In this document: piece by piece, positions 21,655-56,916 of the stretch
Position numbering within the stretch: position 1 is the stretch's first letter
How the letters are laid out: each line of letters starts with the position of its first letter
Source: Candidatus Nitrotoga sp. SPKER
Lineage (GTDB): Bacteria > Pseudomonadota > Gammaproteobacteria > Burkholderiales > Gallionellaceae
Assembly: GCA_003402285.1 (NCBI GenBank)
Contig: QFXG01000016.1
Span: 1 to 64,000, forward strand
Direction of reading: 5' to 3'
DNA length: 64,000 bases
The notes under the pieces: generated by a model
Database searches by the model: none
Told to the model about the DNA's origin: nothing
Seen by the model: only the letters and a program-made list of their open reading frames with translations
Made by a program: the position numbers and the translations under genes

Positions 21655-22060
21655 CATCAGTTTCATTCCAGGGGACAGTAGTTGCTGTAACGCGAACTAG
21701 ACGTTTGAGGATGCCAAGATCGAAGCGGCGGTTAAAGCTACTGAACCTCGGACAGTTAACGATTGGAGTATTTACGAAAGTCGAAAGCATGGTATGTTCC
21801 ATTGATAGCTGTTCTCAGGTTACCCGCACGGTATTCACGGTGCTGAATGTTGCACCACTTCCCGTCTGGTGCCGCCATTCATAATAATGGCAGAGTGCGT
21901 TGCGCCGCTGACCACTACGCCTTGGAAGCAGTCCAAGCCATCGGACAGTACTTGGCACAAGACGCCAACGCCATCTCGGCCCAGGCTTCGATGGTTTCCT
22001 TGGTGAACAGGATGCGGACGAAGCAAGCTACGACCGGTTTGCCGTTCTTAGTATTTGTAC
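21655..22060 (-). pseudogene. IS1595-type transposase relic
   Basis: Read across frames on the minus strand: 'ILFTKETIEAWAEMALASCAKYCPMAW', then 'NGTYHAFDFRKYSNR', 'FNRRFDLGILKRLVRV', which is the end of IS1595-type transposases (HxxxxxR...FNRRF). At least three stops or shifts interrupt it. Confidence 0.5.
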
Positions 22061-22249
22061 AGTACGAGTAAGCACATCTTGTTTGGGAGGCCCTGACGCG
22101 TTGCCACGCCCCGCGTGATCCATTGCTATTCCGCGTCTGCTGATAGCATTAACTGTTTTCGATTATGCCTATCACGCAATGCACCATCTGCATCTGTGGT
22201 TAGAATGGAAAAGCTCGTGATATTCGCATGGGTGTTGATTTCATATACC

Positions 22250-22627
22250 CCAACCACCAATATGGGCTAATCATCTGAACAATAGGTGAAGTAAGGTTGT
22301 TTACTCTCCCCGTTACCACCCACTCATGCAATTTATCAGCTGAAATTAAACAGCGACCCGCTTTCCATGTCTTGCGAAAATATGGCTTACTTGCAGCGAG
22401 TTTCTACACGGGCATTAATTGGCTTCTGCACGGTAGTATTAGCCCATACTGGCAGAAAACCCCAATGAAAGAGATCAGCAATCTGCCCGCTGTCTGTTTC
22501 ACGGAATACCCGCGCACGGCGTCCTGGAGCTAGATTCCAGGAAGGCTGTAGATCGAAAGAGCCATCTTGGATCAAGCGCATGGGCATAATGGATTAGTGG
22601 TTTGGATTGAGCAAAGCGTCCGCACAT
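22250..22627 (-). pseudogene. SRAP (YedK-like) gene remnant, copy 1
   Basis: The N-terminus is 'MCGRFAQSKPLIHYAHAL', with the catalytic Cys2 of SOS-response-associated peptidases (SRAP), then a frameshift near 22570 into 'LQPSWNLAPGRRARVFRE ... LFHWGFLPVWA ... KPINARVET'. After that, stops and deletions follow down to about 22250, and the C-terminal half is gone. It is divergent from umuD and shares its operator region, an arrangement repeated at 51.1 kb. Confidence 0.75.
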
Positions 22628-22659: not shown

Positions 22660-22688
22660 TTGACAATGGAACGATCGTTCTGTATCGT
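22660..22688 (+). promoter_or_regulatory. umuDC promoter with GAACGATCGTTC operator
   Basis: -35 TTGACA (22660-22665) and -10 TATCGT (22683-22688) are 17 bp apart, and the palindrome GAACGATCGTTC (22669-22680) sits in the spacer, where a bound repressor would block RNA polymerase. The same design occurs at 39000-39029 and 51123-51155. It differs from the usual proteobacterial LexA box CTGT-N8-ACAG. Confidence 0.75.
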
Positions 22689-22723: not shown

Positions 22724-23188
22724 ATGGCTATGCAAATTTCCCCTTACCCTGCCGTGGCCGGTCGATATGACATATCGCTACCCACACTACTGGCACCAGT
22801 GGAACAGATACCCCTTTACACCCACAAAGTCTCAGCAGGGTTTCCTTCACCCGCTGACGACTATGTAGAAGACCGGCTGGATCTGAACCAGCTTCTAGTG
22901 CAAAACAAATCTTCCACCTTTTTTCTGCGCGTCCAAGGGGATTCTATGGTTAATGCAGGCATACAAGATGGAGATATGATCGTAGTCGATCGTTCCATCA
23001 CGCCTGTAGACCGGTCTGTGATAGTAGCTGTTATTGATGGAGAGCTAACAGTTAAACGTTTGGTATTGATCAATGGCGTGGCCGAGCTTCATGCAGAGAA
23101 TGCTAAGTACGCTCCGATCCGATTTAAGGAAGGACAAAATCTGACTATTTGGGGCGTGGTTACTAGCTCAGTCCATTCCGTAAATTAG
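22724..23188 (+). CDS. umuD: UmuD, S24 self-processing subunit of DNA polymerase V
   Basis: The 154-aa protein has the UmuD layout: cleavage site A38-G39 in '[11 protein letters not shown]', catalytic S74 ('GDSMVNAGI') and K111 ('GELTVKRL'), and the C-terminal '[14 protein letters not shown]'. RecA-stimulated self-cleavage gives UmuD', the partner of UmuC in translesion synthesis. It lies 36 nt after the -10 element of a damage-type promoter and 8 nt before umuC. Confidence 0.95.
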
Positions 23189-23196
23189 CAAATCTT

Positions 23197-24471
23197 ATGT
23201 CTACAATCGCGTTGGTGGATGTGAATAACTTTTACGTCAGTGCCGAACGAGTATTCAATCCCAAGCTGGAAGGGGTACCGGTCGTCGTGCTTTCAAACAA
23301 TGACGGCTGTGTAGTGGCTCGCAGTTATGAAGTAAAGGATTTAGGCATCCCGATGGCTGGACCGTGGTTCAAGCTGAAGGACATGGCCCGCAAACATGCC
23401 ATCATCGCTTTGTCCTCTAATTATGCGCTGTATGCCGATATGTCCAATCGAGTGATGACCGTGTTGAGTGATTTCAGTCCGCGACAAGAGATTTATAGCA
23501 TTGATGAATGCTTTATTGATTTAGACGGTATGGAAAGTAATACAACTCAATATTGTCAGTCTATACGACAACGTATTAAACAATGGATAGGAGTCCCTGT
23601 CTGTGTCGGTGTAGGTTCTACTAAAACCCTCGCTAAACTTGCTAATCATGTTGCCAAGAAGCATCCTCAATATGAGAGTGTCTGTAACTTTAAGGAAATG
23701 ACATCGGTTGAACTCGACATACTTTTAGCAAGCATCAAGGTGAGAGAAGTTTGGGGGATAGGACGAAAACTTAATGCACATTTACAACAGGGAGGCATCC
23801 AAACCGTACAGCAATTGCGTGATTTCGATGTCATGCGTCTTCGTAAGCGTTTCGGTGTAGTGATGGAGCGCACCGTACGTGAATTACGTGGCGAATCGTG
23901 TCTCGAAATGGTGGATATCGCCCCGGACAAACAGCAGATTATTAGTTCACGTAGCTTCGGGCGATATGTTACAGAACTCTGTGAACTGGAAGAAGCGGTC
24001 AGTACCTATATGTCGCGCGCCGCAGAGAAACTACGCCGACAAAATTCGGTCGCTTCTACAGTCTTTGTCCACATCCATACAAATCCCCATAAAGAGGGTG
24101 CACCACAATACTCCCCAGGAATGACGATAGGGCTTTCCCATCCCACAGATGACACACGAAAACTGACCAATGCCGTGCTGGTTTGTTTGCGCAGAATATA
24201 CAAGAGAGGGTATGAGTACCAGAAAGCTGGGGTAATGCTGTCAGACATTAGTCCCAAAGGTATTAGCCAAAGCGATTTGTTTGCCGAACAGTTCACAACA
24301 AATCATTCCAACAAACTAATGAGTATGTTAGATCAGGTCAATCTCAAAATGGGTAAAGGCAAGCTCAAGCTGGCTAGTGAAGGATTAGAACAGAGCTGGA
24401 AGATGAAGACCGGTAGTAAGAGTCCCGCTTATACCACTCAGTGGGGTGAGTTGCCAATTGTTCGGTCTTAG
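23197..24471 (+). CDS. umuC: UmuC, Y-family DNA polymerase V catalytic subunit
   Basis: The 424-aa protein is full length for UmuC. '[16 protein letters not shown]' carries the first metal-binding Asp, '[11 protein letters not shown]' the catalytic DE pair, '[17 protein letters not shown]' the nucleotide-binding stretch, and helix-hairpin-helix and little-finger regions follow ('[17 protein letters not shown]', 'SSRSFGRYV'). Together with UmuD' it performs error-prone lesion bypass. The operon is intact, unlike the second copy, whose relics are at 50.6 and 56.1-56.5 kb. Confidence 0.96.
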
Positions 24472-38730: not shown

Positions 38731-38999
38731 TTTTCCAAATTTCGACAAATAATAATTTAAACGGTTTGCTGTGCATTTTTTACCCAAATTTGAAATTTCT
38801 ATTCCATTAGTATAAGCCTTATTTTTTACTTATCATTTACTAGGCATCTTTAAATCTTCTTCTAACTTCACAGTGCATGTAATGGGATGGCTGAGAAGCA
38901 TTAAGTAAAAAATACCGTTGCGCGTTTTTCAGAGGTTCCATTACTAGCAAGGGGAGTATCCGCACATAACTCGATCTTAAACATGATTTACCTCTCATA

Positions 39000-39029
39000 T
39001 TGACAATAGAACGATCGTTCCATTACTAT
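39000..39029 (+). promoter_or_regulatory. promoter with GAACGATCGTTC operator (LexA-like operon)
   Basis: -35 TTGACA (39000-39005), palindrome GAACGATCGTTC (39009-39020) in the spacer, and a -10 TACTAT (39024-39029) 18 bp on. It precedes a 29-residue membrane peptide and the LexA-like gene, so the repressor probably controls itself. Confidence 0.7.
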
Positions 39030-39074
39030 ACAAATATTGAACGGTCTAACATGTAATTAATTGAGGAAATAAAA

Positions 39075-39164
39075 ATGCAAAAAGATAATGTGTTTGATCC
39101 AGATCGCATGGTATTTTTTGGATGTATGTGTGGTGCACTGTTTTTGGTAGTTTTTAGTTGGTGA
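39075..39164 (+). CDS. 29-residue membrane peptide under damage-type operator
   Basis: GAGG precedes an ATG that encodes 29 residues: a charged head (MQKDNVFDPDRM) and a hydrophobic helix (VFFGCMCGALFLVVFSW). It is the first ORF after the GAACGATCGTTC promoter. Size, topology and regulation recall SOS-induced membrane peptides such as E. coli TisB (29 aa), but there is no sequence similarity that I can see. It could also be an unrelated leader peptide. Confidence 0.5.
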   Translation: MQKDNVFDPDRMVFFGCMCGALFLVVFSW

Positions 39165-39209
39165 TATATATTTAGCATTGAGAAAAATTGTGTTCCATAT
39201 GAAATCTTA

Positions 39210-39791
39210 ATGCACATGGCAAATGACACCGAATATCTTGGAAAACTTCAGGATTACTACGCTCAGCACAATGTATTACCTCCCTATTCCACTATTATGG
39301 AATTGATGGGATATAAATCTAAGTCTCCCGTTGCTGCGTTGATTACTCGTTTACGACTGCTTGGCTTTCTGGAATTCACTGCTGAAAAGCGCCTTAAACC
39401 GGGTAAACGTTTTTTTGAGCGCACAGTATTTGATAGTGTGCCCGCAGGTATGCCCAGTCCTGCCGAAGACTCCTGTTCGGATTCACTGACTATAGATCAG
39501 TTTCTGATCAATCAACCCTCCAATACCATTTTGGTCACGGTCAAAGGGCAATCTATGACGGGTGATGGAATCATGCCGGGTGATACCGTAGTCGTAGAAA
39601 AGCGCAACATGGCGAACGTTGGAGATTTGGTTATTGCAATCGTGGACAACGAATTCACGCTAAAAAGATTGGGCAAGGACAAGAAAGGATTTGTATTGCA
39701 TCCCTCTAATCCAGAATTTCCCCCTATACGCCCTGAAGGCAATCTGGAAATCTTTGGCATAGTCATCGGGCAGTTTCGAAAATATAGATAA
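39210..39791 (+). CDS. LexA-like self-cleaving repressor
   Basis: The 193-aa protein has an N-terminal winged-helix (about 8-65, 'PPYSTIMELMGYKSKSPVAALITRLRLLGFLEFTAEKRLKPGK') and an S24 peptidase domain with cleavage site A79-G80 ('SVPAGMPSP'), catalytic S115 ('KGQSMTGDGIMPGD') and K152 ('DNEFTLKRL'). All residues for RecA-stimulated self-cleavage are present. The DNA-recognition helix differs from canonical LexA, in line with the different operator found at three promoters here. No strong ribosome-binding site is seen; an alternative ATG lies two codons later. Confidence 0.88.
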   Translation: MHMANDTEYLGKLQDYYAQHNVLPPYSTIMELMGYKSKSPVAALITRLRLLGFLEFTAEKRLKPGKRFFERTVFDSVPAGMPSPAEDSCSDSLTIDQFLINQPSNTILVTVKGQSMTGDGIMPGDTVVVEKRNMANVGDLVIAIVDNEFTLKRLGKDKKGFVLHPSNPEFPPIRPEGNLEIFGIVIGQFRKYR

Positions 39792-39839
39792 TTTATTTGG
39801 TGCCAATTCCTCAAGGACAGGATAATTCCGCTATATTGA

Positions 39840-41231
39840 ATGAGTACATTGTTGCCTGCATATGTGTTGCTTGATCTAGAAACAACAGGATGCACCCCTA
39901 CACTTGATCGTATTACTGAAATTGGTTTGATTCGCTATGAAAAGGGTGTTGAAGTAGGTCGTTGGAATACGCTCATTAATCCTGAAGTCAGTATCTCACC
40001 GTTTATTCAGCGGCTTACAGGTATTACCCAAGCAATGGTTCCTCATGCCCCCACATTTGAGCAGGTAAGTGAAACGTTGTTGCAATGGCTGGATCACGCA
40101 GTATTGTGTGCCCACAATGCACGTTTCGATTATGGATTTCTCAAAAACGAATTTAAACGGATCGGTATTACGTTTCAAAAGAAACTTCTATGCACCGTCA
40201 AGCTTTCCAGAAAGCTATATCCCCACCATCATTCACATGGCCTTAGTGCCATTATCGAAAGATTTAATCTAACGTGTCACCAGCGTCACCGTGCGATGAG
40301 CGATACGCAAATGATGGCAGATTTCATTGATGCAGCAATGTTTGAATTAGGAGAATTTAAAGTCCAGGAGGCTGCAGGAATATTACTGAAGCAACAAGCG
40401 ATTCCGGTAAGTTTAAATCATCTTGATATCTCTGCTATCCCAGAAACCTGTGGTGTGTATTTATTTTATGGCGATAGCGCATTACTTTATGTTGGCAAAA
40501 GTGTTTCATTGCGATCTCGAATATTTAATCACTTTCAGAGCGATCATTCTTCCGCTAAGGAAATGCGCATTGCACAAAAAATCAAACGAGTTGAATATCG
40601 TCTTACTGCCGGTGAATTAGGTGCTTTGTTATTGGAATCGCGGTTGATTAAAGAATATCAACCCATCTATAACAGGCAGCTTAGACGTGAGCGACAACTT
40701 TGTGCATGGCAAGTCAACTCTGATCCCAACGGCTCGCCCTTAGTGACCTTGATCAATGATAGCGACATAAATTGGCGTGATATGGAAAATGTATATGGCG
40801 CTTTCAAAACGACACGTCAGGCAGTTGAAGTACTGAATAAGCTGGCCGATGAACATGGTTTATGCGATAAGGCTTTAGGGCTAGAAAGAGGATCGGGTAT
40901 ATGTTTTTCTCATCAAATTAAGCAATGCAGAGGTTTGTGTGATGGCAAGGAATCCGCCAAGTCACACTGGTTACGCCTCGTCGCCGCATTAAGTGGATAT
41001 AAGCTTCTGACATGGCCGTATGCGGGACGTATTGGAATTAGAGAGCACAATACAGAAAATGATATCTCCGAAATACACGTCTTTGACCAATGGTGCCATT
41101 TGGCAACCGCCGACGATCACCATAAATTAGATGAGGTAACAGGTCCCCCCCGTTTTGACCGTGATACTTACCGCTACCTCCTCAAGTTCCTCAACCGAAA
41201 AGATGTCGAGGTAATCCCGATGAATGGATAA
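39840..41231 (+). CDS. DnaQ-like exonuclease fused to GIY-YIG (Cho/UvrC-type) nuclease
   Basis: The 463-aa protein has a DEDDh exonuclease domain (about 8-175; D12/E14 in 'LLDLETTG', 'HNARFDYGF', 'HRAMSDTQMMADF') and a GIY-YIG domain (about 200-285; 'TCGVYLFYGDSALLYVGKSVSLRSRIFNHF') with a C-terminal UvrC-like extension ('ICFSHQIKQCRGLCDG'). Such DnaQ-UvrC fusions are common alternative incision nucleases. It follows the LexA-like gene by 48 nt and is probably part of the same damage-induced operon. Confidence 0.92.
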   Translation: MSTLLPAYVLLDLETTGCTPTLDRITEIGLIRYEKGVEVGRWNTLINPEVSISPFIQRLTGITQAMVPHAPTFEQVSETLLQWLDHAVLCAHNARFDYGFLKNEFKRIGITFQKKLLCTVKLSRKLYPHHHSHGLSAIIERFNLTCHQRHRAMSDTQMMADFIDAAMFELGEFKVQEAAGILLKQQAIPVSLNHLDISAIPETCGVYLFYGDSALLYVGKSVSLRSRIFNHFQSDHSSAKEMRIAQKIKRVEYRLTAGELGALLLESRLIKEYQPIYNRQLRRERQLCAWQVNSDPNGSPLVTLINDSDINWRDMENVYGAFKTTRQAVEVLNKLADEHGLCDKALGLERGSGICFSHQIKQCRGLCDGKESAKSHWLRLVAALSGYKLLTWPYAGRIGIREHNTENDISEIHVFDQWCHLATADDHHKLDEVTGPPRFDRDTYRYLLKFLNRKDVEVIPMNG

Positions 41232-50189: not shown

Positions 50190-50620
50190 TAACGGTAGTG
50201 GCGCGGCCCTTCAATTTGCTCAAGAGCTGTAATGGCAATGGCCTGGACAATCCGGTGCGGATTGTCGATGTATTTGTGAATGAGCTTGAGCTGGCCGAAC
50301 TTGGGTTTGAAGGTGTTACTCCGCATCGACAGGAGGACCTGGCTACCATCCATCACTTCTTCTGAAGCTATACATCTACGGATATCTCAATCGCATTCAA
50401 TCGAGTCGGCGTCTGGAACGGGAGGCACAACGTAATGTCGAGCTGATAGCTCACAGAACATCTGGCACCCGACTTCAAGACAATTGCCGACTTTCGCCGT
50501 GAGAACGGCAAAAGAATTCGTGACGTCTGCCGCTGCTATGTTGCAATGTGCCGCCAGTGAAAGCATTTGCGCTGACGTAGAAGTTGTTCATGTCTACCAG
50601 GGCGATGGTAGTCATAGAAC
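50190..50620 (+). pseudogene. IS1182-type transposase relic
   Basis: Across frames: 'VFVNELELAELGFEGVTPHRQEDL', then 'KLYIYGYLNRIQSSRRLEREAQRNVEL', 'LAPDFKTIADFRRENGKRIRDVCR'. This is the conserved N-terminal block of IS1182 transposases. It is broken several times and occupies the place where umuC would follow umuD2. Confidence 0.65.
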
Positions 50621-50621
50621 G

Positions 50622-51086
50622 CTACTTGACCGAATGCACTGAACTGGTGACTACACCCCAAACGGTCAGATCTTGTCCTTCTCTAAATCGGATCGGTTCG
50701 TACTTATGATTCTCGGCATGGAGCTCGGCAATGCCATTGAGTAATATCAGGCGCTCGACTGTCAGTTCACCATCAATGACAGCTACAACCACAGACCGGT
50801 CTATTGGCTCGACAGAACGATCAACGACGATGATGTCGCCGTCATGAATGCCTGCATTAATCATTGAATCCCCTTTAACGCGTAGGAAAAAGATGGATGA
50901 CTTGTTTTGTACTAGAAGTTGATTGAGGCCCAATCGGACTTCTATGTAGTCGTCGGCAGGTGACGGAAAATCGGCTGAGACCTTGTGGGCGTATAAGGGA
51001 ATCCGCTCAACCGGCGCCAATAGAGCAGGCAGCCACTTATCATGGTGAGTGAGCGTATGCGGATAAGATGAAATGTGTATTGCCAT
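50622..51086 (-). CDS. orphan UmuD-like protein lacking cleavage and catalytic residues
   Basis: The 154-aa product is closely similar to UmuD at 22724 over its whole length ('[17 protein letters not shown]', 'VKGDSMINAGI', '[14 protein letters not shown]'). However, the cleavage-site Gly is Asp (A38-D39) and the general-base Lys is Glu (E111 in 'GELTVERL'), while S74 remains. It should therefore be unable to self-cleave. No umuC follows; an IS1182 relic does. It has a good promoter with the shared operator. It may act as a full-length UmuD that pairs with UmuD or UmuC and tones down mutagenesis, or it may simply be decaying. Confidence 0.85.
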   Translation of the reverse strand: MAIHISSYPHTLTHHDKWLPALLAPVERIPLYAHKVSADFPSPADDYIEVRLGLNQLLVQNKSSIFFLRVKGDSMINAGIHDGDIIVVDRSVEPIDRSVVVAVIDGELTVERLILLNGIAELHAENHKYEPIRFREGQDLTVWGVVTSSVHSVK

Positions 51087-51122: not shown

Positions 51123-51155
51123 CCTTCACGATATAGAACGATCGTTCTATTATCA
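51123..51155. promoter_or_regulatory. bidirectional promoter with GAACGATCGTTC operator
   Basis: ATAGAACGATCGTTCTAT (51133-51150) is an 18-bp perfect palindrome. On the minus strand it lies between TTGATA and TATCGT (17-bp spacer) toward umuD2; on the plus strand it lies between TTCACG and TATTAT (17 bp) toward the SRAP gene. Confidence 0.75.
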
Positions 51156-51187: not shown

Positions 51188-51752
51188 ATGTGTGAACGCT
51201 TTGCTCAATCCCAACCGCTTATTTATTATGCCCGTGCGCTCGATCTGGTATGGAATCCTACGTATTTTGATCTAGACCCTTCGGGCTGATGCTACCAGCC
51301 AGAAGCCGATCAATGCACGTGTCGAAACTCCTGCTAGTAAGCCCTATTTTCGCAAGACTTGGAAAGCTAGTCGTTGCTTAATCCCCGCTGATGGATGGTA
51401 TGAGTGGATGGGAACAAGGAAGAGTAAACAACCTTACTTCATCCATCGTTCAGATGATGAGCCGATTCTTATGGCTGGGCTGTATGAAACCAACACCCAT
51501 GCCAACATCACGAGCTTCTCCATCCTCCCCACAGAAGCAAAGGGTGCTTTGCGTGATGTGCATAATCGAAAACCGTTGGTGCTTTCCGGTGACGCTGGTA
51601 AACAATGGATCAAGCCAGGTTTGGGAACTGATGAAATTTCTGCACTGGCTCAAAGTTCGCTGACTGACGAGAGATTTGCATGGCGTGCAGTCTCTACCAA
51701 GGTGAATAATGCAAGGAATGCGGGGGTGGAGTTGATTTCGCGATTAGGATAA
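51188..51752 (+). pseudogene. SRAP (YedK-like) gene remnant, copy 2
   Basis: The N-terminus 'MCERFAQSQPLIYYARAL' is followed by a deletion of about 50 codons and a stop; the C-terminal half is intact in another frame ('KPYFRKTWKASRCLIPADGWYEWMG', 'MAGLYETNTHANITSFSILPTEA', 'IHNRKPLVL'-like 'VHNRKPLVLSGD'). SRAP proteins crosslink to abasic sites through Cys2, and the catalytic Glu/His region 'PADGWYEW' is present. Divergent from umuD2 across the shared operator. Confidence 0.75.
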
Positions 51753-56087: not shown

Positions 56088-56535
56088 TCAGGAGCCAAAC
56101 GACCTGGACACGATGATTTGCTGGCGTGGCTTGCCGACTTCTTCCAACGCCAAGCATGAGACGCCGTTAAACTGCTGCACGGGACGCTCCATTACAACTG
56201 AAAATTGACGTCTTATCCTATCGGGATTGGAGCGCCTTAGCTCCTCAACAGTCTTGATCTTCATCGTCAGCAGCTTCTGTTATTCGTCTGCCGACTCCCC
56301 AAATCTCACTGGAAGGCATACTAGAAAAGAGCGCGCTCAGTTGTCCTTCGTCTAGAAGGCCAAAGTCGCAAACGCCGTCCGTCCCAGCAAATCCTTTTTT
56401 GGCACAATGATTGGCAAGCTTGGCCATCGTCTTTTTGGCGGCGATACCTACGCAGACAGGAATTCCAAGATTACTCATAATTGTTTGTCGCATCTTCTGT
56501 CCGTAAGCCTGCAGTGACTGCGGATCATAACCATA
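56088..56535 (-). pseudogene. UmuC fragment, second copy
   Basis: Two frames give 'YGQKMRQTIMSNLGIPVCVGIAAKKTMAKLANHCAKK', 'SSEIWGVGRRIT', then after a 1-nt shift near 56270 'KTVEELRRSNPDRIRRQFSVVMERPVQQ' and 'QQIIVSRSFG' to a stop at 56088. This is the middle of a UmuC polymerase lacking palm and little-finger ends. It could be the displaced partner of umuD2. Confidence 0.8.
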
Positions 56536-56916
56536 AAGATACACGGACATCTTGTTTTGCTCAAATTGGTTCAGACATTTTTCAATGACATCCGCTCTTA
56601 CGCCAAGTACACCCATCATTGTTGCCCCGGTACGACGAAGATCATGGGGTGTCCATTTTCTACCTTTTAACTTTAACGCATTGATGTTTTTGCTGCGTGA
56701 CGTCATAGCTGGCCTTTCGTTTAAGCCCGGCTGATTCACCGCTAGGGAGACATTGAAAACTATCAAAGGTTTAATGTACTCAGACTTTACAGAGTCAATT
56801 GGGTTAATGCGCAGATCGCCAACCCCCTGAATTATACCTAGGACGCAAATAGCGGGCTTTTTGGCGCGTTGCCGAACTGCTAATACCTTGCGCGGCTGTC
56901 CCGCAATACGCAGCAA
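56536..56916 (-). pseudogene. integrase fragment fused in frame to UmuC fragment
   Basis: Residues 1-125 of the frame 56916-56245 resemble a P4-type tyrosine recombinase ('RKWTPHDLRRTGATMMGVLGVRADVIEKCLNQFEQNKM': catalytic H-x-x-R), directly followed by UmuC sequence from 'YGQKMRQTI'. The N-terminus (MLRIAGQPRKVLAVRQRAKKP) contains unrelated sequence. The junction seems to be illegitimate recombination. Confidence 0.7.

Follow-up and report, generated by a model that had tools for sequence, protein, structure and literature searches.

The Gram-positive LexA/DinR box has the form GAAC-N4-GTTC. Within the Betaproteobacteria, a noncanonical LexA motif with the consensus GAACGaaCGTTC was reportedly described for Sideroxydans and Gallionella by Sanchez-Alberola et al. 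in 2015 (J Bacteriol). PMC8565304, PMC13148647, PMC6595937 and PMC7017128 cite that 2015 study (J Bacteriol 197:2622, 10.1128/JB.00035-15), and PMC6595937 gives CTGT-N8-ACAG as the usual betaproteobacterial LexA box. With regard to the effectors of such circuits, PMC4211646 describes two small membrane division inhibitors of Caulobacter, i.e., the LexA-controlled SidA, a protein of 29 aa, and DidA, which the HTH-WYL factor DriD activates. A search of the accessible literature returned no paper on LexA or the SOS response in Nitrotoga, nor any paper joining WYL, LexA and a small membrane division inhibitor.

The locus described here lies in a window of 64,000 nucleotides (positions 1 to 64,000 of contig QFXG01000016.1, assembly GCA_003402285.1) of Candidatus Nitrotoga sp. 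SPKER, for which we propose, with high confidence, an SOS switch in which the sole LexA of the organism would act on GAACGATCGTTC in three promoters and would be removed by damage-triggered self-cleavage. An earlier, sequence-only reading of the window had placed GAACGATCGTTC at three positions, each between a -35 element (TTGACA or TTGATA) and a -10 element with a 17-18 bp spacer, and all three positions and their promoter contexts were borne out (Table 1): every copy is located inside the spacer of a sigma-70-type promoter, the spacers measuring 17, 18 and 17 bp, respectively. The genome-wide scan proposed in that reading returned these three exact copies, each in a promoter spacer and all inside the window, from a genome of 2,982,257 bases, while 0.17 copies are expected from the base composition of the window (P for three or more approximately 7e-4) and the reversed control pattern gave 0 matches in the whole genome. 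The signal rests on the exact match, and relaxed matches carry none: matches with 2 mismatches to GAACGATCGTTC occur at 4 places in the window, with as many in 20 of 100 shuffles, and allowing up to 1 mismatch to GAACGNNCGTTC yields 47 places in the genome versus 149 for a control pattern. Besides the three window copies, the genome has one further exact GAACGNNCGTTC, GAACGTACGTTC on contig C26, which falls within a 419-aa reading frame. Promoter context was scored at 43 other places in the genome, i.e., 42 one-mismatch sites and the exact site on C26 (one further one-mismatch site overlaps the latter and hence was not scored separately); 40 of these fall in a mechanical ORF of at least 100 aa, and at none of the 43 are a -35-like and a -10-like element both in place, while the same test was positive at all three GAACGATCGTTC sites of the window. 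A wider regulon operating through one-mismatch sites was rejected, none of those scored being in promoter position.

Table 1. Features of the window that belong to, or adjoin, the proposed LexA-controlled units (positions are those of the window).
Feature	Position	Strand	Basis and remarks
SRAP remnant, divergent from umuDC	22055..22627	-	Frameshift and stops, three-frame reading; left end approximate
Predicted umuDC operator GAACGATCGTTC	22669..22680		Promoter on + strand: TTGACA (22660-22665), 17 bp, TATCGT (22683-22688)
umuD	22724..23188	+	Cleavage Ala-Gly, Ser and Lys intact
umuC	23197..24471	+	Domain/family profile matches
Predicted lexA-operon operator GAACGATCGTTC	39009..39020		Promoter on + strand: TTGACA (39000-39005), 18 bp, TACTAT (39024-39029)
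29-aa DPDR-family peptide, first gene after operator	39075..39164	+	Shine-Dalgarno-like GAGGAA; homologues; coding signal
lexA	39210..39791	+	193 aa; profile and structure matches; start more likely 39216 by kin alignment
DnaQ-type exonuclease plus GIY-YIG (Cho-like) nuclease	39840..41231	+	463 aa; profile matches
umuC remnant after umuD2, first 25 codons only	50541..50615	-	tblastn E 8e-4
umuD2	50622..51086	-	Alignment: scissile Ala-Gly to Ala-Asp, catalytic Lys to Glu
Predicted second-umuD operator GAACGATCGTTC	51136..51147		Promoter on - strand: TTGATA (51156-51151), 17 bp, TATCGT (51133-51128)
SRAP remnant with inner deletion	51188..51752	+	Profile match; lacks an inner piece

The 193-aa protein encoded downstream of one of these operators is LexA, and it is the sole LexA found in the genome. 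Its S24 domain matches PF00717 (E 1.4e-26), and TIGR00498 covers 181 of its 193 residues (E 1.4e-27), with a score of 96.6 bits that lies below the curated cut-off of 110.95 bits; this cut-off is passed in none of the 19 genomes of the genus and may therefore not suit the lineage. The self-cleavage residues listed in the sequence-only reading (A79-G80, S115 and K152) are present at exactly those positions, and the cleavage-site and dyad residues are invariant in 31 of 31 aligned LexA rows, the window included. Pfam LexA_DNA_bind does not match the protein; a profile of the 31 LexA rows nevertheless aligns to E. coli LexA (residues 5-188 on 9-197) with the DNA-binding domain included. The AlphaFold2 model (mean pLDDT 80.5) places helices at residues 2-18, 24-31 and 36-48, followed by a wing, and the best Foldseek matches of the predicted fold, both full-length, are the Thermotoga and E. 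coli LexA structures (3k2z, E 2.3e-14, and 3jso, E 6.5e-13, respectively). Model and alignment thus agree on a predicted N-terminal winged helix-turn-helix. This winged helix had been called divergent, which holds in comparison to the E. coli type, as the missing LexA_DNA_bind match indicates, but not in comparison to nine close kin, to which the DNA-binding domain is 70-78% identical with a nearly unchanged recognition helix.

The protein had also been termed a second LexA-like repressor, and this designation had to be abandoned. The coexistence of a canonical LexA and a second one with separate boxes would have some precedent in the family, where three genomes (G009, G013 and G021) carry two or three LexA-like proteins each, but its probability here is practically negligible: the searches, both of them with a positive E. 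coli control, returned three S24 proteins from the window's own genome, i.e., LexA and two UmuDs, and neither a canonical LexA nor a second S24 repressor was found in this genome, which is rated 100% complete.

The link between this LexA and its predicted operator was assessed in the sequences upstream of lexA in the best 80 of 401 named relatives (L094-L173). GAAC-N4-GTTC is present at most 150 bp before lexA in 63 of these best 80, and exact GAACGNNCGTTC in 54; 56 of the 80 fit a strict pattern that requires TTG... before the box and TA... after it, while control palindromes and CTGT-N8-ACAG occur in 2 and 1 of the 80, respectively. The corresponding element of the window's lexA promoter, at 39009-39020, is GAACG-NN-CGTTC. 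GTAC-N4-GTAC takes the place of the box in 14 more of the best 80, and the three remaining relatives have degenerate or other boxes. The changed box is accompanied by a changed recognition helix, since, among the best 80 and the window, N39 is found in 14 of 14 GTAC-N4-GTAC rows versus 1 of 64 GAAC rows, and T42 in 14 of 14 versus 0 of 64. The 14 GTAC-type LexAs (L123, L127, L129, L133, L134, L137, L140, L141, L143, L144, L147, L148, L150 and L151) form one clade in the tree, with 13 belonging to the Methylophilaceae by name and L137 unplaced, and the helix-operator pairing may therefore represent a single event. It is very improbable that the palindrome serves a different regulator and is present at lexA only incidentally, in view of both the retention of the box at lexA in these 63 relatives and its joint change with the LexA recognition helix. 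The same retention supports the proposal, made in the sequence-only reading, that this LexA is the natural candidate for the repressor of the site; GAACGATCGTTC is very probably, as judged from these comparisons, a LexA operator and autoregulatory site.

In close kin, the operator element is mostly located 26-29 bp before lexA, compared to approximately 190 bp in the window, where the peptide gene sits between the two. Of 69 promoters that could be measured among the best 80 of 401 named relatives, 48 have the lexA start 6-8 bases past the -10 hexamer, and the lexA message is thus probably leaderless in many of them. In the tree, the window LexA is placed among 17 Gallionellaceae and Nitrosomonadales rows whose order is unresolved (94/87); a larger set of 20 rows that contains this group is supported (100/95). 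The branch of the window LexA is long (0.41 versus a median of 0.055).

From these data we infer LexA binding, cleavage, induction and a lexA operon, which would together work as follows. A LexA dimer would bind GAACGATCGTTC in the spacer between the -35 and -10 elements, by which RNA polymerase would be shut out of the three promoters, thereby repressing the operon of the membrane peptide, lexA and the exonuclease/GIY-YIG gene, the umuDC genes and the decaying second umuD. Upon DNA damage, RecA on single-stranded DNA would prompt LexA to cut itself at A79-G80 by means of the S115/K152 dyad, and the ensuing end of repression would switch on the target genes, including lexA, whose product would reset the system. 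The exonuclease/GIY-YIG gene is likely part of the lexA operon, and no terminator-like site was found between it and lexA. As a conserved partner of lexA it was rejected: the gene is found whole beside lexA in none of the best 80 of 401 named relatives, and its exonuclease part in one, with at least 1.5 kb downstream of lexA covered in 74 of the 80 stretches.

The three sites had been assigned to three damage-gene promoters, an assignment that stands for umuDC and the lexA operon, while the third target, listed as umuD2 plus SRAP, proved to be a decayed gene pair. The umuD2 product is predicted not to self-cleave; in LexA, the G85D replacement reportedly blocks cleavage, and umuD2 has the same Gly-to-Asp change as this mutant, which is named in the title of structure 1jhf. 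The remnant beside umuDC was assigned to SRAP by eye, as it resembles the SRAP remnant at 51188-51752. Pieces of another umuC are present at 56094-56538 on the minus strand, partly in a mechanical ORF at 56245-56916. A recA gene is present in the genome, yet its control by a LexA operator was rejected, as no operator site was found in the recA locus (L078) at up to 2 mismatches. With recA lacking an operator and with umuD2 and both SRAP genes broken, the regulon looks as though it is shrinking. These same losses, including two active-site residues of umuD2, would also fit a relic, in which LexA and its sites would be inherited leftovers without a useful damage response, as would the presence of LexA in 4 of the 15 genomes of the genus that are at least 90% complete and the long LexA branch, which might mean relaxed constraint. 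We nevertheless give a relic only a small chance, as all three operators are perfect 12-mers, LexA retains its cleavage site, dyad and recognition helix, and umuDC and the genes of the lexA operon are open.

Across 19 genomes of the genus, LexA was found whole in six and truncated at a contig end in one. The genus contains 32 exact GAACGNNCGTTC sites, i.e., 20 in the seven LexA genomes and 12 in the remaining 12 genomes, where no LexA was detected. The strict promoter pattern applies to 9 of the 20 sites in the LexA genomes (one of these LexAs being truncated) versus 2 of the 12 in the others; the former count rises to 12 of 20 if the sites ahead of lexA (G061) and recA (G070 and G079) are added. 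The G070 site is an exact match ahead of recA (L060), and that of G079 (L085) is exact and lies in what appears to be the same cinA-recA gap, the presence of recA there being presumed from the cinA-like gene before it and from frames on the strand opposite to recA. Of the two promoter-type sites in genomes without a detected LexA, that ahead of a Bro-N gene in G067 (91% complete) is convincing and speaks against a simple rule by which such sites go with LexA, while that in G026 lies inside a reading frame and has weak hexamers. LexA-type promoter sites ahead of Bro-N domain genes were observed in two genomes of the genus (L059 and L084), one of them being G067.

A different arrangement was encountered in eight of the 19 genomes of the genus, in which a UmuD with a long N-terminal part is located behind a 22-base near-palindrome, ATGATTATTGTTACGATAATCA, that occurs only at this gene. 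Six of these eight genomes are without LexA, and two (G033 and G061) have both. The long UmuDs (L175, L176, L177, L179, L180 and L182-L184) possess approximately 75 aa before the S24 domain, compared to approximately 30 in the UmuD of the window. Their N-terminal parts contain the motifs TRGG.R.GAGRK and TK.MRIPES and resemble a ribbon-helix-helix by eye; a Pfam scan of one copy returned no DNA-binding family. By its layout, this UmuD of other Nitrotoga genomes is a candidate self-cleaving repressor.

The first gene after the operator of the lexA operon encodes the 29-aa DPDR-family peptide, which has a single hydrophobic stretch of helix length as judged by eye. It might be argued that this ORF is a leader sequence only and no gene, given that it is very short, that no Pfam or NCBIfam family reaches the cut-off for it, and that, among 20 copies, divergence is highest in those of the window and G005 (the window copy having a mean identity of 0.54 to the rest). 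We regard this as unlikely, if less so than a relic circuit, because, at E 0.01, homologues are present in 20 of the 158 genomes of the family (that in G147 being weak) and in 14 of 19 in the genus, a PDR.VFF.CM.G core is invariant in 10 aligned copies, and a copy stands by itself behind a double operator in a different genus. Moreover, a pN/pS of 0.27 over 171 pairs of 19 copies indicates that the peptide evolves as coding DNA. Sec61beta was rejected as a named family, as it gave sub-cut-off matches only, and no copy was confirmed in viral contigs.

The DPDR gene was located at 27 loci, in two principal contexts. A WYL-type regulator gene adjoins it at 15 of these, in 13 of the 19 Nitrotoga genomes and in one other genome, the WYL domain itself having been scanned in one of the adjoining regulators; the window's own genome also carries such a WYL-linked copy, on contig C14. 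At three of the 27 loci, in three genera, DPDR belongs to an SOS unit: besides the window, these are G005 (L174), where it follows umuC by 27 bp in a umuDC operon whose promoter contains GAACGATCGTTC, and G007 (L250/L261), where a 44-aa version is the stand-alone copy under the double operator, GAACGAACGTTC and GAACGTTCGTTC. The nine other loci have neither a WYL gene nor an SOS unit, and some are weak matches or lie near contig ends. We infer a damage-induced membrane peptide; that it arrests division is a guess by analogy. In full, the DPDR peptides of Gallionellaceae may be a new family of damage-induced membrane peptides, probably division inhibitors, that are switched on by LexA in some genomes and by a WYL factor in Nitrotoga, most genomes of which have apparently lost LexA, a reading that we advance tentatively and to which we give somewhat less than an even chance. 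SulA went undetected throughout the 19 Nitrotoga genomes, and the peptide could be an SOS checkpoint effector in bacteria without detected SulA.

When set against the systems outlined above, the Nitrotoga switch appears, by the reported motif, to be a further example of a kind already described in this family. It shares with the betaproteobacterial LexA of the 2015 study the family Gallionellaceae, the reported operator consensus and an atypical LexA for Betaproteobacteria, so that the term non-canonical, which the sequence-only reading had given the operator, is correct for Proteobacteria at large but not for this family, whose reported motif it matches. It differs in belonging to another genus, in its very small regulon without recA, and in the addition of the peptide gene and the exonuclease/GIY-YIG gene to the lexA operon. 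The half-sites and spacing are those of the Gram-positive LexA/DinR box; the Nitrotoga LexA itself is of betaproteobacterial lineage. A known but little-studied SOS system is thereby extended to nitrite oxidizers, with a regulon caught while seemingly shrinking, and the pairing of S39N/A42T in the recognition helix with the change from GAAC to GTAC is testable. The long UmuDs of other Nitrotoga genomes are comparable, by layout, to Acinetobacter UmuDAb (PMC4807011, PMC11332147) in their long N-terminal extension and promoter palindrome; no long-extension UmuD of this type was found in the window's own genome. The less ordinary part, and that worth pursuing, is the small membrane peptide between the operator and lexA. 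Compared to SidA and DidA, as described in PMC4211646, it is alike in its 29 aa, its one hydrophobic stretch, its SOS promoter and its homologous copies beside an HTH-WYL gene, and it differs in that it has no demonstrated sequence kinship with them and in that one DPDR family spans both contexts. If the tentative reading given above is true, a single effector family would have been handed between two damage-sensing circuits, those behind SidA and DidA in Caulobacter.
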